Assembly (NCBI GenBank): GCA_020832285.1
Contig: JAFIFB010000050.1
Location: 1-64,000 of the forward strand
Direction: 5' to 3'
Length of the DNA: 64,000 nt
Source: Balneolaceae bacterium
GTDB taxonomy: Bacteria; Bacteroidota; Rhodothermia; Balneolales; Balneolaceae
This document shows positions 36,046-46,084 of the stretch, piece after piece. A model generated the notes under the pieces. The model saw nothing but the letters and a program-made list of their open reading frames with translations. It was not told where the DNA came from and did no database searches. Each line of letters starts with the position of its first letter. Positions within the stretch are counted from its first letter, which is position 1. Both the position numbers and the translations under genes were made by a program.

Positions 36046-37833
36046 ATGGAAACGGCTAATAAGAATATCACAGTAGCCAGGCGAAGACTAGGACAGGCTC
36101 TTGTTGACGAAGGAATTATCACCCCCTCGGAGCTTGAAAATGTGATGAAAATTCATCAGTCCGAACCGGCATCCATCCGCAGGAGAATAAGTACAATCGT
36201 AGTAGATGATTTAAAGGCCGATCGCCACCGGGTGATGAAAGTAATAAGCCGACTCTATGCATTCCGGGAGGTGATGAAAAATGAAACACCTTCCGATTCC
36301 CTGATCGATAACATCCAAAAATTGATGGATGAGCTTTCCGATGAGGTTGCGGATGAAATGATCCACCGCAAAACCATTCCTTACAAAGCAGATAAAGACC
36401 TGATTGTACTTGCCTGTGCCGATCCAACTGATCCTGAAGTTTCTGCACTTGCTGCGGGGCTCCCCTACAAGCTTTATGAGCTCACCTACTGCCGGTATGA
36501 AACGGTCGAAAAAATCATCAATAAAGTATATGAGCAGAAAAATGAATTTCTGCGAATTCTCGATGAGATAGAACTTGAAGACCCCGAACTGGATATACAG
36601 GAAGTTGACGAGGAAGAGCTCGATGCCGAAATCAACAAAAGCATGCTCAACTCTTTGGTTGAAGGAATGCTTGTTGAAGGAGTCAGAATGGGAGCCAGTG
36701 ATATTCACATCATTCCCGGCAAAAGAAATGTAACCGATATTCTTTTTCGGCTTGACGGACGCCTCAGGGTTTGGCATACTCAGCCCAATGTTAAACCAGA
36801 GGCCATTTCTGCAGTTGTGAAAGATAAAACACTGAATGTAGATCGCTTTGAAAGAGATTCCGCACAGGACGGTTACATTCAGCGAAGAATTGACAGTACG
36901 AACATCCGTTTCAGGGTTTCTATTTTGCCGATGGTAGGGGAAGAGTTTGAACGAAAGTTTGAATCGATCGTAATTCGGATTCTCGACGATCGTAAAGTGA
37001 TTACCGATCTTAACAAACTGGGTCTGCAGGAAAAAGCTCACGAAGATTTTTACAAAGCAATCACGAAGCCCTCGGGCATTGTAATTATTACCGGCCCAAC
37101 CGGATCAGGAAAATCCACTACACTTGTTGCTGCTCTGCATACGGTAATGAACCCGGAATTTAATGTGCTAACCATTGAGGAACCGGTAGAGTACCTGATT
37201 AAAGGTGCCCGTCAGCTTAAAATCTCTGAAAACATGACATTCGATCACGCTCTGCGGGGAATTTTACGCCACGATCCGGACATTGTTCTGGTGGGTGAGA
37301 TTCGTGATTTGAAAACTGCCGAAGTTGCCATTAAACTTGCTAATACCGGCCATCTCACATTCTCCACTCTTCACACTAATGATGCACCCAGTGCAGTAGC
37401 CCGCCTTTTTAAAATGGGTGTGGAACCATTTTTGATAGCAAATGCCATTAACCTTGTGATGGCTCAGCGACTTATCCGAAGGCTTTGTAAACACTGCAAG
37501 CGTCCCATCCGGGATGAGAGTAAACTGCATACCGCGATCGGCCTCGGTTTTTCAGAACAGGAACTAAGCGAAAATACTATTTACGAAGCTGTAGGTTGTG
37601 ACAAATGTACAAGCGGTTATGACGGACGGATAGCCATACACGAGGCACTCTATTTCGACAAAACCTTACAGAGGATGATTTTTGATGCAGGTGACGAAAT
37701 TGATGAAGATGCCATACGCCAGTATGCAATTAAAAACGGAATGCTGACTCTGCGGGCGTCAGGCAGGCTGCGTATCAAAAACGGCCTCTCTACTATAGAG
37801 GAGGTAATGGCCATTACGCTTGAAGATGCGTAA
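36046..37833 (+). CDS. pilB: PilB/GspE-type assembly ATPase
   Basis: The hexameric motor ATPase powers extension of type IV pili or pseudopili. The protein has 595 residues. Its N terminus carries one MshEN-type motif (RLGQALVDEGIITPSEL near 14-30), where c-di-GMP-responsive relatives carry two. A second N-domain follows. Then come the ATPase with Walker A GPTGSGKST near 350-358, the Asp-box TIEEPVEYL, Walker B HDPDIVLVGEIRD and the His-box STLHTNDAPSAVARL. A zinc-binding pair CKHC and CDKC near 481-523 is typical of GspE/PilB. It is the first gene of the operon, but 650 bp separate it from the next gene. Confidence 0.93.
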   Translation: METANKNITVARRRLGQALVDEGIITPSELENVMKIHQSEPASIRRRISTIVVDDLKADRHRVMKVISRLYAFREVMKNETPSDSLIDNIQKLMDELSDEVADEMIHRKTIPYKADKDLIVLACADPTDPEVSALAAGLPYKLYELTYCRYETVEKIINKVYEQKNEFLRILDEIELEDPELDIQEVDEEELDAEINKSMLNSLVEGMLVEGVRMGASDIHIIPGKRNVTDILFRLDGRLRVWHTQPNVKPEAISAVVKDKTLNVDRFERDSAQDGYIQRRIDSTNIRFRVSILPMVGEEFERKFESIVIRILDDRKVITDLNKLGLQEKAHEDFYKAITKPSGIVIITGPTGSGKSTTLVAALHTVMNPEFNVLTIEEPVEYLIKGARQLKISENMTFDHALRGILRHDPDIVLVGEIRDLKTAEVAIKLANTGHLTFSTLHTNDAPSAVARLFKMGVEPFLIANAINLVMAQRLIRRLCKHCKRPIRDESKLHTAIGLGFSEQELSENTIYEAVGCDKCTSGYDGRIAIHEALYFDKTLQRMIFDAGDEIDEDAIRQYAIKNGMLTLRASGRLRIKNGLSTIEEVMAITLEDA

Positions 37834-38482
37834 CCATTGAATAAATTATGATTTATCAATCGCTGAATAAGTTATTAACCCGAATTCGATTATTGAAAAA
37901 GTCTCCCTGTTTCCCCTTTTTTCAGGAGGCCTTTCATTAACAAATTCATTAATCGAACTCAGGTTATTAGCCATTTTTTAAATCGTTCTGTTAAATGATA
38001 GGCATTGGGTGCACTTTTACGAATTAGTGATAAAAACCTTATCAGAAATGCAACCTGCAATTGCGCACTATTTGGTTTCGGTCTCGATTAGAGGTGGATT
38101 TTTATTATAACTTTGAGTATTAAAATATTTTAATATTTTTTATATTTAATAATCAGGGTGCTGCAGATCGGAATGCCCGGGCAAATTTTTTTAAGAGTTT
38201 GAATTTGTTAGTCAACTGATTTTATGCTTTGGAAAAATCCATTTCCAAAAAACATAAAAATCTTAGTTTTCAAATTCAGTTTAAATGACCTTTCAATTTC
38301 GACAGGTTTTTGCTGCCTTGGCTCCTGTTTACAGCTTATGGCTTATTTTGGGATGTAATTTACACTTTAGCGCTGGCCTCAGAAAGGTTCATGCAGGTTG
38401 TAGCACTTACAATTCAAAAAAGTACAGAACAAAACCACAAACTACGGGTGCAGTATGCATCAAGGTGTGAAATAATAAATAC
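37834..38482. other. 650-bp gap inside the pilus-like operon
   Basis: The spacer is very AT-rich around 38100-38160 (runs of T and A) and frames are interrupted. Short open frames at 38285-38470 show no family resemblance. A gene that would be expected here, such as a PilC platform protein, is not present even as a remnant that I can recognise. A second promoter for the downstream genes is likely. Confidence 0.4.
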
Positions 38483-38986
38483 ATGGAACATCAAAACAGC
38501 GATATGCTGCAAAATGCACGTGTTCAGAAGATACTCGAGGAAGTACCTTTACTATTCCGAAAATTTTCACCGGATGATATCAGGGCGTTTATTCTCTGTG
38601 GTGATCTTGAAGAATACCGTCACGGGGATGTTATTGTATCTGAAAATGGTGGATTGATCGAATATGGATGTTTGATTACTGAAGGTTCGGCATCTCTGTA
38701 TAGGGAAGATGTTTATTTCGGGACACTGAAACCGGGTGATTTTTTAGGTGAAACTTTCCTTTTCAGAAAAATTATTCCTGCAGGCACCCTTGTTGCCTCT
38801 GAGTCAACGGCTGTTATTAAGTTCGACCGGAAGGAGGTTCTTCATTTTTTTGAAACACGACCCGACAGGCTTTTTAAGCTTTTTATCGTAAATCTTCTGG
38901 AACTTCAGAATCAAAAACTTATACAGGCTGGAAAAAAAATTCTCTACATTCATAAAAAGCTGATGCAAAATTCACAAAAAGATTAA
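38483..38986 (+). CDS. Cyclic-nucleotide-binding (Crp-type sensor) domain protein
   Basis: The 167-residue protein consists of a single cNMP-binding beta-roll domain without a DNA-binding helix-turn-helix. The signs are FSPDDIRAFILCGDLEEYRH, GDVIVSENG, GCLITEGSASLYRE, the phosphate-loop region LKPGDFLGETFLF near 93-105, and SESTAVIKFDRKEVLHFFE. The canonical phosphate-binding R-A of Crp (GE-x-ALL-x-x-x-x-RxAT) is only partly kept: GETFLFRKIIPAGT. Ligand binding is therefore uncertain. It sits directly before the PilT-like ATPase gene, 6 bp to its ATG. That suggests a regulatory subunit for the pilus motor, which is inference. Confidence 0.8.
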   Translation: MEHQNSDMLQNARVQKILEEVPLLFRKFSPDDIRAFILCGDLEEYRHGDVIVSENGGLIEYGCLITEGSASLYREDVYFGTLKPGDFLGETFLFRKIIPAGTLVASESTAVIKFDRKEVLHFFETRPDRLFKLFIVNLLELQNQKLIQAGKKILYIHKKLMQNSQKD

Positions 38987-38992
38987 GTGCAA

Positions 38993-40216
38993 ATGGAAGC
39001 TGTGGCAACCCAAACTGTAAAATCCGCTTTAGACCGATACCTGTCTGATGTCCCCGAAGAGCTTAACAATATTGATCTGGCTCAATACCTGATCAATATT
39101 TTATTTGAAATGCCTTCTGAAGACCGGAAGATGTTTCGAAAGTATCTTGAAACCTTTCTTAAGCAAATGGATCAACTGGAGGCCTCAGATATTGATCTTG
39201 GTGGAGAAGGTTGTCAGGGCAAAATATGGTATCGTATACACGGAGTTAAAAGGCCCTGGCAACACAGTGAAGACTATTCATTTAACGAAACGAACCTTCT
39301 GCTTTTAAATTTAATGAGTGACGATCAGATGGAAAACCTGATCGTTAAGCGAAGTATCGATTTTTCTTTCTCGCTATTATCAGACAGGCACCGCCGTTTT
39401 CGTGGAACCATCTACTTCGACATGGACAATCTGGCCATGAATATGCGGCAAATCAGCAATGAAATCCGTCCATTTAAAGATCTTAACCTGCACCCCGAAG
39501 TAGCCCGCCATCTCAGCCTTAAATATCTTAAATATGGCCTCACATTGGTTACAGGTATTACCGGTTCAGGTAAGTCCACTACATTGGATACAATCATTGA
39601 TGCCAACAATCGCTCGGTTCGTGGTCACATTGTAATTGTCGCCTCTCCGATAGAATTGATTCACAAACCTCAAAAGTGTATTATCCGCCACAGGGAAGTC
39701 GGTCGTGATGTTGCTACGTTCCGGGATGGAATTGTTCAAGCTATGCGACAAGACCCGGATATTGTTGTAATCGGAGAACTTCGGGATGATGTTGCCATAC
39801 GAAATGCTCTTGAAGTTACTGACTCGGGCCACAAAGTATTTTCAACACTTCACACTGCGTCTGCGATGGAAAGTGTAGACAGAATAATCGGTGAAACCCC
39901 GCTGAATGAACAGGAGCGTGTACGTAATCGTCTTGCTGATGTTTTAACCTGTGTAATAAGTCAAAAACTTGTTAATACCCGAGAGGGCAACAGGGTTCTT
40001 GCGAAAGAAGTTCTGGTTGCTACGCCTCCGGTTCGTGCGGCTATCCGCAATAATAATATTGCAGAAATCTATCAGATGTTAAATGAAGGCGGACAACACG
40101 GGATGCACACAATGGAACAGGATTTAACAAGGCTTGTAAAGCAACGTATCATTACCCCGGATGAAGCCGTTAACCAGGCTAATAACAAAACCAGAATTAA
40201 ACAACTTCTTCGCTGA
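38993..40216 (+). CDS. pilT: PilT-like retraction ATPase
   Basis: About 407 residues from the ATG at 38993; a GTG at 38987 touches the previous stop. The N-terminal PAS-like region (to about 150) precedes the ATPase. Walker A TGITGSGKSTT is near 187-197. The Asp-box reads VASPIELIHKP where typical PilT proteins have IEDPIEFVH. Walker B is QDPDIVVIGELRD and the His-box is STLHTASAMESVDRII. The HREVGRD segment and the long C-terminal helices fit PilT. The zinc-binding cysteines of PilB are absent, as expected. The altered Asp-box is the one odd feature and may weaken hydrolysis. Confidence 0.88.
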   Translation: MEAVATQTVKSALDRYLSDVPEELNNIDLAQYLINILFEMPSEDRKMFRKYLETFLKQMDQLEASDIDLGGEGCQGKIWYRIHGVKRPWQHSEDYSFNETNLLLLNLMSDDQMENLIVKRSIDFSFSLLSDRHRRFRGTIYFDMDNLAMNMRQISNEIRPFKDLNLHPEVARHLSLKYLKYGLTLVTGITGSGKSTTLDTIIDANNRSVRGHIVIVASPIELIHKPQKCIIRHREVGRDVATFRDGIVQAMRQDPDIVVIGELRDDVAIRNALEVTDSGHKVFSTLHTASAMESVDRIIGETPLNEQERVRNRLADVLTCVISQKLVNTREGNRVLAKEVLVATPPVRAAIRNNNIAEIYQMLNEGGQHGMHTMEQDLTRLVKQRIITPDEAVNQANNKTRIKQLLR

Positions 40217-40258
40217 TTTGGTTATTAACCTGCAGTAATTTTTTACAAATAATCTACA

Positions 40259-42619
40259 GTGGCAAAAAAAGAATACATAGGAATAACCCATGAATATGAC
40301 AAGCTGAGAATTGCAAGGCTCCGTGTAGTAAAGCATGGCCTTGAGCTTGTTGAGGTTGAAGCACTTGATCTGCCCACACCGCTCACCACAGGCATGGATC
40401 AGGGTATGGATCTGTTCGATTCATTCGATGATTCTGATGATCTCGGTTTTTTTGAAACCGGCAGTGAGGGAGAACCGCTTGACGCCGGAGATAATCTTCT
40501 TGATGATTTAGACGACCCTTCTGCCCCATCCTCACCAGGCAGTGAATCTGCCCTGGAGGATAGCTTCGACATGACCAAAATAGACGATGATGTTGAAGTA
40601 GCCGCTGACAATGAACGCTTGCTCGCCGAATATTTTACAAAAGAAGGCAAAAAAAAGATTTACGCAGGCCTGCATATTCCATTTGGGAAAACCACATTTC
40701 ATTTCCTGAAAAATGTGGATCCCGCAAAAATGAAAAAAAATGCTCGGCATGAATTTTTCAGGGAAAAACTGCAACCTATTGCAGACCGTGACATTTCACC
40801 CGACCATTACTCCTGGGTTAAAATTGGGGAAAATAATTGCCTGCTTGCTTATAATCCGGATGAGTCAGAGCTGATTAACCTCATTGAACTTGCTGAAACC
40901 TACTATAACGGCAAAGTTCACATCAATGAACTGCTCCCGGAAGAAAGTATCTGGGCAGGGCTTGCAAGAGCAAACTATAACCTGCAGGAAGATGATATTA
41001 CCGGCCTGATCGGACTGGGTGAATCTTCAAGCCGAATCGTTTTTATGAAGGGGCAGGAAATTGTAAATACACTCCCTATAATTACGGAGGGAGAAAGTTC
41101 AGATGATGTACTCAACACCGTTTTCAGTAAAATTCTCTTCGAAATTGACAAAGGTAATCTGCCCAAAATCACCCGGCTTTTGGTGACGCGCTCCTCAAGA
41201 CTTAAAGAAACCGTCACTTCTTACCTGAAAAAGCAGTTTGAAGATGTAGAAGTTGACTACCTAACACCACATCCAGACAATCTTAGTTACTCTAATGAAC
41301 TGTTGAATTCACCGGTTTACCTTCAACCCTATCTCACAGCGATTGGAGCTGCCTGGGCTGCAAGTAAGGTAAATGAGAAGGAATTTTCACAACTCTCACT
41401 CCTGCCGGAATATATTCTGGAAAAACAGCGTATGCTTAAACTAGAGTGGCATGGAATTATAATATTAGTACTGATTGCCCTCACCCCTCTTTTTATTAAT
41501 ACACTGTACAACTCAAAAGCCTCTGAACTGCAGGAACTTCAACGGGAAAACACCCTTATCTCCAGCCAGATTGAAGATTTAAGGCCTATTGCTAGCATGA
41601 CCGAAAGCCTGATGGCAGACCTCCAAGAACTTCAAGCTGAAAATGACCGTATTCTCGAACTCGCACGCTACAGCCAGCAGTGGTCAGAAACACTTATAAA
41701 GTTGAACCAGGGCGTTGGGGATATTTCGAACATCTGGCTTACTTCGGTTCGATCATCTGATGCTCATGTAAATATTACCGGGTATTCTCTTACAAGACAG
41801 CAGGTGCCCATGCTTGCAAACCTGTTCAGTGATGCGAATATCCATCAGGTAAATGAAACTGAAATTCGCGGTCAGGATGTTTATAACTTCTCCATGCAGG
41901 TGAACAGCATTCGGCAGGATCTTGACGAATTTTTGCTTGAAATGCCCGATGCCAACTTTGAAATTGAGCTACCCGAAGAATATCAGCTTGAACTTAGTCA
42001 CCTCCGTGAACATCTGCCCGCGAATCAATCTGATGTACCGCAAGCCACTCATCAACAACCTGAAGAGCCAGCAGAGCCTGCAGCTACACAGGATCCTTTA
42101 CAGGATATGCCTGTTTCGACAGACCAGCCTGTACAAACGAAAACCCCTGAAGAGAGGGAAGCCGTTAACCAAACACCTGAACCTGAAACCAATACCGAGC
42201 CGGTACCAGAGCCTGCAGAACAAACAGAACTTCCATCCCCAACTACGACGGCCGAAACAGATACACCCCAAACTGAAAATCATCTACCCGAAGAAATAGA
42301 ATCGGTTTCGCAATTAGCGTTTACAGAAAAACCGGATGAGTCTTCCTACGGCGTGATGGAACCAGAACCAGTTCAGCTTATTGGTGCATATACTATTGTT
42401 TTGGATTTTATTGAACAGAAAGAAGAGGCTTTCACAAAATATCAGTCACTAGCGAAAGAGGGGTATAAAGCAACTCTTTGGGAAGCAGAAATGACACCCG
42501 GACGCAAAGTGTGGCGTGTAGGTATAGGCCAGTTTGAAACACTGAACCACGCACTTACAGCCGCTCAGGAGCTCCCTGAAGTATATGCAAAAAATAATTT
42601 TATAATACGCATTCGATAG
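40259..42619 (+). CDS. PilM-PilN fusion protein with C-terminal SPOR domain
   Basis: The protein has 786 residues from a GTG; no nearby ATG is in frame. Residues 1-390 form an actin-like PilM/GspL-type cytoplasmic domain whose phosphate loops are degenerate (IGITHEYDKLRIARL; GLIGLGESSSRIVF), so ATP hydrolysis is unlikely. An Asp/Ser-rich insert lies at 45-110. One membrane helix (IIILVLIALTPLFINTLY, near 400-417) leads into a coiled coil and a PilN-type periplasmic domain (NIWLTSVRSSDAHVNITGYS). A Pro/Glu/Thr-rich linker follows (590-700), then a SPOR domain near 708-786 (AYTIVLDFIEQKEEA, WRVGIGQFETLNHAL). The SPOR domain would tie the apparatus to peptidoglycan. Such a fusion is GspL-like in principle, but with an added wall-binding module. 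Confidence 0.8.
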   Translation: MAKKEYIGITHEYDKLRIARLRVVKHGLELVEVEALDLPTPLTTGMDQGMDLFDSFDDSDDLGFFETGSEGEPLDAGDNLLDDLDDPSAPSSPGSESALEDSFDMTKIDDDVEVAADNERLLAEYFTKEGKKKIYAGLHIPFGKTTFHFLKNVDPAKMKKNARHEFFREKLQPIADRDISPDHYSWVKIGENNCLLAYNPDESELINLIELAETYYNGKVHINELLPEESIWAGLARANYNLQEDDITGLIGLGESSSRIVFMKGQEIVNTLPIITEGESSDDVLNTVFSKILFEIDKGNLPKITRLLVTRSSRLKETVTSYLKKQFEDVEVDYLTPHPDNLSYSNELLNSPVYLQPYLTAIGAAWAASKVNEKEFSQLSLLPEYILEKQRMLKLEWHGIIILVLIALTPLFINTLYNSKASELQELQRENTLISSQIEDLRPIASMTESLMADLQELQAENDRILELARYSQQWSETLIKLNQGVGDISNIWLTSVRSSDAHVNITGYSLTRQQVPMLANLFSDANIHQVNETEIRGQDVYNFSMQVNSIRQDLDEFLLEMPDANFEIELPEEYQLELSHLREHLPANQSDVPQATHQQPEEPAEPAATQDPLQDMPVSTDQPVQTKTPEEREAVNQTPEPETNTEPVPEPAEQTELPSPTTTAETDTPQTENHLPEEIESVSQLAFTEKPDESSYGVMEPEPVQLIGAYTIVLDFIEQKEEAFTKYQSLAKEGYKATLWEAEMTPGRKVWRVGIGQFETLNHALTAAQELPEVYAKNNFIIRIR

Positions 42620-42622
42620 ACC

Positions 42623-43480
42623 ATGAAATACAGTATACGAAATTCACTCATACTGATATTTACACTATTGCTGATGGTAGGTGGCGGATGGCTGTATGTT
42701 CAGAACAAATTCAATGATGACATAGAAGCGGCAATTATTGAACAGGAGCAGCTTTCGATTGAACTTGAGGAGGTTGAACTTGCAGCAGAATTCTTCGAAG
42801 AAACCCAGGCACACTATAACCAGGCATTATATGTCAGGCTGAACCATCCCAAAGAGTTATTCCCAACACACAACTCAAGTCACTTTTATAATTACCTGCA
42901 AGAACTGAACCGGGGTATTTCTTTTACCAATTTGAACTTCGCATTCAGGGACTCTGTACGAAACAGTGACCACGGAATTGTTAATGTAGAAATACGTGGA
43001 GAAGGTCGTTATGAAAATCTGGTTAATTACTTATACAGGATTGAATACAGCAGGCCACTTGTAAAGTTACAATCTGTACAGCTTGAAAATATCACCAACT
43101 ATGAACGGCTGGATCGTGTAAATTTTCAAATCAATCTGGGTGCTTATTATCGTCGCGGAGAATGGAGTAACTACATTGCTCAGTTACAATCTGCCGGGCC
43201 TTTAGGTAACATCACCCACAACCCTTACTTTCCTCTCATTCACGAAGTACCGCCAAATGATGATAATCTTCCCGAAGTTGAAAACAGCAGACTTGTGGTG
43301 CTCACTGGCAACCGCGCCCACATTGTCGATCAAACCGGGAGCCTGATACGGCTAAATATTGGAGACAGAGTATATCTTGGAAGGCTTTCAGATATTAACC
43401 TCGACCGTGGAGAAGCGGTGTTTCAACTGAATCGCGGAGGGATCAGAGACAGAGTGAAACTGGCTCTCCGTCAAGAATAA
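42623..43480 (+). CDS. PilO-PilP-like fusion protein
   Basis: The 285-residue inner-membrane protein has one N-terminal helix (SLILIFTLLLMVGGGWLYV, 8-26) and a coiled coil (about 32-65). A PilO-type ferredoxin-like periplasmic domain follows, with ELNRGISFTNLNFAF, VEIRGEGRYENLVNYLYRIE and VNFQINLGAYY. Residues about 200-285 look like a PilP/GspC homology-region domain: HNPYFPLI, then VVLTGNRAHIVDQTG, RLNIGDRVYLGRLSDI and AVFQLNRGG. PilP normally links the inner-membrane ring to the secretin. It starts 3 bp after the PilM-PilN gene. The fold assignment of the C-terminal part rests on motif pattern and context. Confidence 0.72.
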   Translation: MKYSIRNSLILIFTLLLMVGGGWLYVQNKFNDDIEAAIIEQEQLSIELEEVELAAEFFEETQAHYNQALYVRLNHPKELFPTHNSSHFYNYLQELNRGISFTNLNFAFRDSVRNSDHGIVNVEIRGEGRYENLVNYLYRIEYSRPLVKLQSVQLENITNYERLDRVNFQINLGAYYRRGEWSNYIAQLQSAGPLGNITHNPYFPLIHEVPPNDDNLPEVENSRLVVLTGNRAHIVDQTGSLIRLNIGDRVYLGRLSDINLDRGEAVFQLNRGGIRDRVKLALRQE

Positions 43481-43495
43481 CAGACAGGAACAGAC

Positions 43496-44704
43496 ATGAA
43501 AAATCTTAGCATTTTCACAGTATTTTTATTCATTGTATTATTAAATATCCAAACTTTACTTGCTCAAGACCGGCTGCCATTCAGGGAGTATACCAATCCT
43601 GATGAAATGATTGTTCTTTCTGCGGATGTTAACTTTCACGATGTTCTGGATATTATAGAAGAACTCTCGATTGAATTCAGAGATAAAATCTTTGTTAACC
43701 GGTCAACATACGAAGGCCCCATTGGAATTGATATTCCACGTATGCACTGGGAGGATGCACTTAATCAAATCCTTGCACACAATAATATGTACATGATCGA
43801 AGCACCCCGCTACTTTGAAATCATGGATATACCAGAACATGAACTTCCCGAAGAAGAACGAATTACAGAGCGTGAAGAACGTCCGGTACGTTTCGATTCC
43901 CGAGAAATTGAAATTTCAGCAACTTTTTTCCAGGGTGACAAACGGCTCATTCGGGAACTGGGTATAGACTGGAACAGTATTCAGAACGATAGAGTACGTG
44001 TTTCCAACTTTGGCGCTGCAAGTGTGGGACAGGATGTATTTGAAGTGGAGGTAAACTGGACTGATATTTTCAACTCCGGATGGGATATAAATGCTCTTTT
44101 CAGTGCATTCGAAACCAGTGATAAAGGAGAAATCTTATCCTCACCACAAATTAAAGTACTTGACGGAGAAACCGGATCCATTCAGGTTGGCCAGGATTTT
44201 TCTATCAAACAAAGGGATTTTGCCGGAAACATTACCGATCAGTTTTTCAGCACCGGCACCATTTTACGGGTCACACCTCAGGTACTTTATCATGAAGGGC
44301 AGCCATTTATTTATATGACCATTAATGCAGAACGCAGTACAGCTCAACCCGATCCGATAAGCACTATTGTTAATAAACAGGAGGCCGCTACAGAAATTCT
44401 TTTATTGAGTGGTGAGAGCACCGTTATTGCAGGATTATATGAAACTGAAGTCCAAACTACCCGAAGAGGAATCCCTATTTTAAAAGATTTGCCCGGATGG
44501 TTTCTTGGCCTGCGTTATTTATTCGGATACGAATCGCATGAAAACGTTGTGCAAGAATTGGTAGTACTCATTAAAGCAACCCTTGTTCCTACCCTCGAAG
44601 AACGCTTAGCACAGCCGATGAGATCTATGCCGGAATTACTGGAACAACAAAGACAGACATTTCAGGAAGAAATTCATCAGATACAGCGGGATGATGAAGA
44701 ATAA
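43496..44704 (+). CDS. Short PilQ/GspD-type secretin
   Basis: The protein has 402 residues. A signal peptide ends near TLLAQ, an STN/N0-type domain lies at about 35-115 (VNFHDVLDIIEELSIEF, HWEDALNQILAHN), and a secretin core follows from about 140 to 375. The core has VEVNWTDIFNSG, KGEILSSPQIKVLDGETGSI, GTILRVTPQV and the signature VIAGLYETEVQTTRRGIPIL followed by KDLPGWFLGLRYLFG. Typical PilQ proteins are 600-800 residues and carry AMIN and several N domains; these are missing here. It is the last gene of the operon, 15 bp after the PilO-PilP gene, and ends in a Gln/Glu-rich tail. Confidence 0.85.
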   Translation: MKNLSIFTVFLFIVLLNIQTLLAQDRLPFREYTNPDEMIVLSADVNFHDVLDIIEELSIEFRDKIFVNRSTYEGPIGIDIPRMHWEDALNQILAHNNMYMIEAPRYFEIMDIPEHELPEEERITEREERPVRFDSREIEISATFFQGDKRLIRELGIDWNSIQNDRVRVSNFGAASVGQDVFEVEVNWTDIFNSGWDINALFSAFETSDKGEILSSPQIKVLDGETGSIQVGQDFSIKQRDFAGNITDQFFSTGTILRVTPQVLYHEGQPFIYMTINAERSTAQPDPISTIVNKQEAATEILLLSGESTVIAGLYETEVQTTRRGIPILKDLPGWFLGLRYLFGYESHENVVQELVVLIKATLVPTLEERLAQPMRSMPELLEQQRQTFQEEIHQIQRDDEE

Positions 44705-44976: not shown

Positions 44977-45010
44977 CTGCGAGATTCTGTCGGTCGACAG
45001 AATCACGCAG
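44977..45010. repeat. 34-bp palindrome
   Basis: Arms CTGCG-a-GATTCTGTCG and CGACAGAATC-a-CGCAG surround a GT centre; the only mismatch is the single A facing A. There is no T run on either side, so it is not a standard terminator. It lies 52 bp beyond the stop of the actin-like gene and may be a protein-binding site or a folded RNA 3-prime end. Confidence 0.7.
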
Positions 45011-45061: not shown

Positions 45062-46084
45062 CTAATCTTCAGACGACTTTACGCTAACACAGGTATGAGC
45101 ATTTCCAATATCCAGCCCTACAGCTCTCGTGCCTGGATACTCAATTTTCTGAGAGGCATGTAAACAATAACCCGTACTTGCCATTTCCATAGGATTATCA
45201 GGTATTTCGATTTTCAGTAATCCTTTAAATTCATCGTAAAAAGATTCAACCAATTCCCGATAATAAGCACCTCCTCCTACCAATACGAGGGTACTGGTTT
45301 TACTGAAATCATCATCATTCCAAGTGTTTTTGATTAAAGGAGATATTACGTTTTCATAATATTGCCTGAGTACACTTTTTCGAAGATCTGAAAGGTCAAT
45401 CCTCCTTCTGTTGAGAATAATGTTTCCTTGTTTCAGTGCGGTATCGAATTGATGTTCGTTTCTAAGACCCAAATAGTGAGTATTTGAAAGTTCTTTCATT
45501 GCAGAGTCAATTGCATATCTCAGCCCATTACCGCTGCTTAAAGTTCTTTGAACAAATCCATCTTCAGTAGTTAGTCCAAACTCAAGAGTTCCATAACCGA
45601 GGCTCACTACAAACATGCTTCCTCTGATTCCCATTTCTCCTTCACGTGCAGCAACAATAGCACCAAAGATTTCCGGTATAAGATTAATTCTTTCAATATT
45701 TATGGGAATGTCCTCATAACCACTGCCGCCAAATGGCCTTGTATCACGGGTTACACTTTTAATTTTACTGATGAGTTCAGAAGCAGCTTCTTTATTCAGG
45801 TTATAGGTAGAATGCGGAAATCCGGTTGTTATAGATATAGGTTTCGTTCCCACATCTTCCGCAGCAATTAAAAGTCCCGCTTTTAATAATAACTGATAGT
45901 CCAGATCATCAGGTGAACTATTGATTCCTTTGTGAGGAGATTTACCTTCAGCTAATGCCAAATTACCTATGATATAATCTTCATTGTTGTGTTTTATTTT
46001 TATAGCATCAGTTGTATCTGTCGTTACGTTCAACAGTGAAGAATTATAACTTTCTAATACACTTGGAAAAGTCGTGGTTTTCAT
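45062..46084 (-). CDS. Actin-like ATPase (ParM/StbA-like) with a circularly permuted motif order
   Basis: The 340-residue protein carries the actin-superfamily motifs in an unusual order. Phosphate-2 (FVVSLGYGTLEFGL) is at 158-171 and the adenosine loop (TLVLVGGGAY) at 265-274. A connect-2-like segment (DNPMEMASTGYCLHAS) lies at 296-311, and only then comes phosphate-1 (AVGLDIGNAHTCVSV) at 321-335. In ParM, MreB and actin, phosphate-1 is at the N terminus. Here the N terminus begins with TTTFPSVL, the strand that normally follows phosphate-1. The in-frame upstream codons reach a stop at once and encode no DIGN motif. The aspartate of phosphate-2 is Ser161. ParM-type proteins form filaments that move DNA or organise cells; this one has no visible plasmid-partition partner. 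Confidence 0.82.
   Translation of the reverse strand: MKTTTFPSVLESYNSSLLNVTTDTTDAIKIKHNNEDYIIGNLALAEGKSPHKGINSSPDDLDYQLLLKAGLLIAAEDVGTKPISITTGFPHSTYNLNKEAASELISKIKSVTRDTRPFGGSGYEDIPINIERINLIPEIFGAIVAAREGEMGIRGSMFVVSLGYGTLEFGLTTEDGFVQRTLSSGNGLRYAIDSAMKELSNTHYLGLRNEHQFDTALKQGNIILNRRRIDLSDLRKSVLRQYYENVISPLIKNTWNDDDFSKTSTLVLVGGGAYYRELVESFYDEFKGLLKIEIPDNPMEMASTGYCLHASQKIEYPGTRAVGLDIGNAHTCVSVKSSED

Follow-up and report, generated by a model that had tools for sequence, protein, structure and literature searches.

The locus and its surroundings

The DNA analysed, referred to throughout as the window, is a stretch of 64,000 nucleotides from a contig of a Balneolaceae bacterium (JAFIFB010000050.1), and the gene under study is an actin-like open reading frame on its minus strand (Table 1). 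The frame starts with an ATG codon, has an in-frame stop two codons upstream and shows a GC content of 37%, vs 43% for the window. The phosphate-1, phosphate-2, adenosine and connect motifs are all present, phosphate-2 without its Asp, and are found in the order phosphate-2, adenosine, connect-2-like and phosphate-1. This order had been claimed in an earlier note on the window, and the ORF translation places every motif where the note had put it: phosphate-1 (AVGLDIGNAHTCVSV) corresponds to residues 321-335 and the stop comes five residues further on. For comparison, 38 full-length loci from 35 genomes, belonging to nine families of the phylum Bacteroidota, were used.

The plus strand of the window carries a type IV pilus/type II secretion-like cluster (36046-44704), in which the 786-aa protein matches PilN and SPOR and has an N terminus that resembles PilM by eye; PilM, PilN and SPOR fused in a single chain would be an unusual arrangement. 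In related loci, these pilus genes were not seen as neighbours of the actin-like gene. The secretin and actin-like genes converge, and the inverted repeat lying between them (GATTCTGTCG-GTCGACAGAATC, about 44979-45008) is probably a two-way terminator.

Table 1. Features of the actin-like gene and of the neighbouring cluster (positions in the window)
Feature	Position	Strand	Remarks
Actin-like gene, putatively permuted	45062..46084	minus	ORF, 340 aa; same motif order among homologues of 35 genomes; actin fold predicted by AlphaFold2/Foldseek
C-terminal phosphate-1 hairpin RAVGLDIGNAHTCVSV, residues 320-335	45080..45127	minus	invariant residues; model strands; matches profile start once moved to front
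Connect-2-like segment ASTGYC, residues 302-307 (segment 298-307)	45164..45181	minus	G305 invariant, 38 loci
Adenosine segment VLVGGGAYY, residues 267-275 (VGGGA = 269-273)	45260..45286	minus	GGG invariant, 38 loci
Phosphate-2 segment MFVVSLGYGTLEF, residues 157-169 (FVVSLGYGTLE = 158-168)	45578..45616	minus	S161 replaces the usual Asp
Connect-1 segment LIPEIFG, residues 135-141	45662..45682	minus	E138 in 38/38 loci
New N terminus FPSV, residues 6-9	46058..46069	minus	segment found after phosphate-1 in canonical relatives
T2SSE ATPases	36046-37833, 38987-40216	plus	
786-aa protein	40259-42619	plus	PilN and SPOR matches; PilM-like N terminus by eye
PilO-like protein	42623-43480	plus	
Secretin	43496-44704	plus	

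Evidence for a circular permutation

The central proposal of the earlier note, that a partition-type actin has undergone a natural circular permutation, is sustained by three rotation tests, by the actin fold seen in two AlphaFold2 models and by the occurrence of the same order in 35 genomes, and can, as far as sequence comparison reaches, be regarded as very nearly certain.

For rotation, the last ~20 residues were transferred to the front of the chain. In all three tests (ALP_N, PHROG_691 and hhalign) this shifted the start of the match from profile positions 16-28 to positions 1-9, with a gain of 5-15 score units or with a match emerging from nothing. Pfam ALP_N (PF17989) was undetected at E<=1 in the native window protein, and matched the protein rotated by 20 residues at 3.6e-12 and 47.2 bits (cut-off 26.3), over profile positions 1-148 of 148. 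With PHROG_691, annotated as 'partition protein', the native match (69.4 bits, 5.9e-19, from position 25) rose to 84.4 bits (1.6e-23, from position 6), and in three other members rotation added 5-10 bits, the match then starting at 6-7. Furthermore, the hhalign score against four canonical plasmid ParM/StbA proteins increased from 90.5 to 105.4 and its start moved from 28 to 9; the E-value against canonical ParM/StbA was 4.9e-12, and in this alignment the connect-2-like ASTGYC faces the RGYYR of these proteins. The rotated sequence covers the whole N-terminal part of the canonical profiles (ALP_N from 1, PHROG_691 from 6, hhalign from 9). PDB sequence searches gave weak matches for the native and the rotated chain, and the top match lent no support either way.

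The new N terminus had been read in the note as the segment normally following phosphate-1, and this reading holds: FPS or YPS also comes after phosphate-1 in canonical ParM/StbA, and ALP_N matches ten further members, taken in their native order, above cut-off from profile positions 16-21, at residues 2-7, from which it can be deduced that it is specifically the phosphate-1 segment that the N terminus lacks.

AlphaFold2 models were obtained for the window protein (pLDDT 86.6, pTM 0.88) and for L052, a member from another family (pLDDT 89.0, pTM 0.89). Both show confident C-terminal hairpin strands (residues 320-326 and 330-335 in the window model; pLDDT about 92 for the hairpin region of L052); the Foldseek alignment follows chain order, and the hairpin is not superposed on ParM beta1-beta2. 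Foldseek gave the two models a probability of 1.00 to Ta0583, ParM, MreB and Hsp70. The best PDB neighbour of both was Ta0583 (1.2e-14 and 1.7e-16), the chain order of which is presumably conventional, and pCBH ParM, Dh-cParM1 and CorM were among the other top neighbours, with TM-scores of about 0.65-0.72; identity to filament-forming actins was low (15-20%). On these predicted structures, the window protein has the fold of the actin/Hsp70/ParM superfamily.

The alternative to a permutation would be an assembly error, a frameshift or wrongly called gene ends, the main doubt named in the earlier note, and practically no likelihood is left to it. The same order is kept in 35 genomes, the single-contig G189 and G357 included, which removes assembly error as a refutation. 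Moreover, in-frame stops lie close upstream in most loci, and the claim that no phosphate-1 is encoded upstream was borne out, none being present within 450 nt, in any same-strand frame, at the window gene and at 20 homologous loci. Finally, dN/dS between the window gene and its 97%-identical relative is 0.05, and none of the three codons that differ in the hairpin changes an amino acid, so that the gene is, as judged by this comparison, under purifying selection. Homologues with the same order, upstream stops, the absence of an upstream motif and dN/dS have together ruled out the artefact.

No prior description of a permuted actin, ParM or MreB was found in open-licence papers, a description elsewhere not being excluded, and the window protein matched no curated Pfam or NCBIfam family above cut-off; the claim of novelty rests on these two results.

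Conservation, distribution and relation to known actins

Phosphate-1 stands at the C terminus in all 38 loci, at identities down to about 39%, and the motif order read in these translations is shared far beyond chance. All 38 proteins have the C-terminal pattern G-[LIMV]-D-[ILMV]-G-N-[AS]-x-T, followed in nearly all by a short tail. There are 40 invariant positions, including E138, G270-G272 and the phosphate-1 residues G323, D325, G327, N328 and T331, and the N-terminal P7-S8 is likewise invariant.

The nearest named relatives of the window protein come from a Balneolaceae MAG (97%) and from Rhodohalobacter sulfatireducens (73%), and tblastn detected 12 further carriers among 92 genomes of the same bacterial family; in two of these carriers the gene is partial and lies at a contig end. 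Profile searches, which were confined to the window's phylum (the scan of genome contigs with one protein reaches close relatives only), found carriers in 23 of 394 genomes of the phylum (6%), in 31 of 245 genomes of the class and in 5 of 79 genomes of another family. A distribution as sparse as that among the sampled phylum genomes shows that the function can be dispensed with, which counts against the joint reading given below. Three genomes (G220, G258 and G511) have two permuted-actin copies, and a bactofilin of its own follows each copy; the copies fall into separate clades, as do their bactofilins, in family trees which have open forks and long branches.

At the position of the phosphate-2 Asp, the 38 proteins carry Ser (32), Gly (4) or Asn (2) and in no case Asp, which is the residue at the aligned position in DnaK, MreB, plasmid ParM/StbA, phage G gp506 and a canonical ParM-like gene of genome G264. 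The earlier note does not mention this replacement. The position is taken here to correspond to D170 of ParM. The D170A exchange in ParM leads to static filaments without dynamics (PMC5539076). From the lost Asp it is inferred that ATP hydrolysis is probably slow or absent and that filaments would be static, hydrolysis and filaments being untested; another residue may compensate for the loss.

By its sequence matches, the family belongs to the plasmid-partition ParM/StbA/ALP group, and it is chromosomal. With the partition actins (ParM/StbA/Alp; PHROG_691, ALP_N PF17989) it shares the actin fold, a near-full-length sequence match and the phosphate-1, adenosine and connect motifs, but it differs from them in the C-terminal position of phosphate-1, the replaced phosphate-2 Asp, its chromosomal location and a bactofilin neighbour, or none conserved, instead of a DNA adaptor. 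No ParR-like conserved neighbour was seen in the loci compared, and no direct-repeat array was found beside the window gene, with weak matches of 2-3 copies in two of three other upstream regions. Within the phylum, the rotated profile and ALP_N recovered permuted members only, and no cousin in canonical order. The PHROG_691 search gave one canonical ParM-like gene (L173, 1489-2370, minus strand, G264:C42), which has its phosphate-1 at the N terminus, keeps the phosphate-2 Asp and is followed by a small gene (115 aa), and which is too distant for dating the permutation event.

A mobile origin was also considered, and was rejected as no relative of the window protein was found on plasmids and the family profile found no match on IMG/VR contigs. 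Searches with L053 gave only distant plasmid ParM/StbA proteins (E about 0.7) and phage G gp506 (2e-4), which has phosphate-1 at the N terminus.

The cyanobacterial FcmB is also a chromosomal relative of the partition-type actins with a partner gene and a cell-shape role, and illustrates that an actin of this type can take over cell shape; its partner is FcmC, the word bactofilin is absent from the paper and no permutation is described there (PMC12645912). It is a precedent for domestication and for a shape role, but not for permutation. The NCBIfam FcmB model (NF052678) did not match the window protein at E<=1, and one member reached 18.9 bits vs a cut-off of 300. CorM (cyanobacterial; PDB 9rmi), another relative of the partition type, is among the top structural neighbours, whereas the archaeal Ta0583 (PDB 2fsj), although the best of them, shares 16-18% identity and comes from a different organism group. 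MreB is likewise a chromosomal bacterial actin with the actin fold; the window protein scored 11.1 bits with Pfam MreB_Mbl, below the cut-off of 27, and ordinary MreB is present in all of the 18 genomes tested for it, which include 13 carriers.

Linkage to bactofilin and possible function

A bactofilin gene (Pfam PF04519; 2e-22 for one example neighbour) lies downstream on the same strand in 30 of the 38 loci, in 24 of them within 280 nt. As each genome has 1-4 bactofilin genes, we put the odds of an adjacency by chance at ~1 in 1000 per locus. On the family tree, the eight loci without an adjacent bactofilin fall into two clades, one being the window's genus and the other family f6; no significant bactofilin remnant was found beside the gene in these loci, the window included, and the window's genome has an unlinked bactofilin (G000:C15). 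Adjacency is not proof of interaction, and the window's own genome is without the linkage, which could not be noticed in the earlier note for this reason.

Most neighbouring bactofilins group apart from the housekeeping bactofilin of the same genomes. In G138, G288 and G396, the actin sits by a housekeeping-type bactofilin instead; a TPR-like gene stands between the two, and an M23 peptidase gene lies upstream. In three genomes of family f24 (L054, L055 and L058) the actin-like gene is flanked by the genes of an M23 peptidase and a TPR-like protein, next to a bactofilin; the upstream peptidase was tested in L054, with orthologues in the same place in L055 and L058, and the genes beside loci of this type are apparently an ATP synthase operon, by gene sizes and order. 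Linkage to two different kinds of bactofilin favours function over hitch-hiking. Bactofilins and M23 peptidases constitute a known shape module, for which no actin-like gene is reported in the parts of the source available (PMC10945521); here, bactofilin adjoins the gene in most loci and M23 in one arrangement.

The joint reading, inferred without experiment and given roughly even chances, is that of a domesticated, permuted partition-type actin, slow or unable to hydrolyse ATP, which works with bactofilin at the envelope. A partition-type actin would have become chromosomal and lost its DNA adaptor, and its chain would have been opened after the beta1-beta2 (phosphate-1) hairpin and the old termini joined, an order that is read directly from the translation within a fold that is predicted. 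The nucleotide-binding parts would have been retained, as observed for the phosphate-1 Asp, the adenosine GGG and the connect-1 Glu, while the phosphate-2 Asp, observed to be lost, could leave ATP-bound filaments with little or no hydrolysis, static rather than dynamic. As inferred from gene linkage, the actin may pair with the bactofilin encoded just downstream in most genomes to make up a cytoskeletal element of two components at the envelope, which would most likely serve cell shape or the local synthesis of peptidoglycan; for the window's genus, where the two genes are apart, the actin would presumably act with the unlinked bactofilin or alone. A composite cytoskeleton, with hydrolysis-poor filaments of the permuted actin built on or templating membrane bactofilin, and with the permutation freeing ParM-type termini for a new contact, can only be put forward tentatively.

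The same loss of the phosphate-2 Asp, together with new termini near subdomain Ia and the 15-20% identity to filament-forming actins, would also fit a non-polymerising actin-fold switch, comparable to FtsA-like or Hsp70-like adaptors, that recruits or regulates bactofilin without a filament of its own. This is judged somewhat unlikely, since filament-forming ParM and CorM are among the best structural neighbours, although the present data do not distinguish monomer from filament. Quite unlikely is a protein which still moves or positions DNA, as in a chromosomal ParM-like segregation, with bactofilin as an anchor or an incidental neighbour. The nearest profiles are indeed those of partition proteins (PHROG_691, ParM/StbA), and bactofilins can anchor chromosome-partition proteins in Myxococcus; however, neither a conserved ParR-like neighbour nor, beside the window gene, a direct-repeat array accompanies the gene, and the family is chromosomal, with searches of plasmids and IMG/VR contigs finding no member of it. 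The phosphate-2 Asp, on which filament dynamics depend, is absent as well, and the one canonical ParM-like gene in the phylum does have an N-terminal phosphate-1 and is followed by a small gene.

A permuted actin with a bactofilin neighbour suggests an undescribed cytoskeleton. If the permutation is true, the actin fold would have been circularly permuted in nature and kept in this form across widely diverged members of a single bacterial phylum; actin chain order would not be required for conserved function, and the family would provide a natural test of the effects of termini on polymerisation. The linkage, in turn, connects bactofilin with an actin-like protein, although these two filament systems are mostly considered apart, and it supplies concrete gene pairs for testing.

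Among the bactofilins that are not beside a permuted actin, two short divergent ones (L139, G014:C12; L140, G020:C4) group with the actin-linked bactofilins of genus g3, and are possible relics of a lost actin-bactofilin pair.
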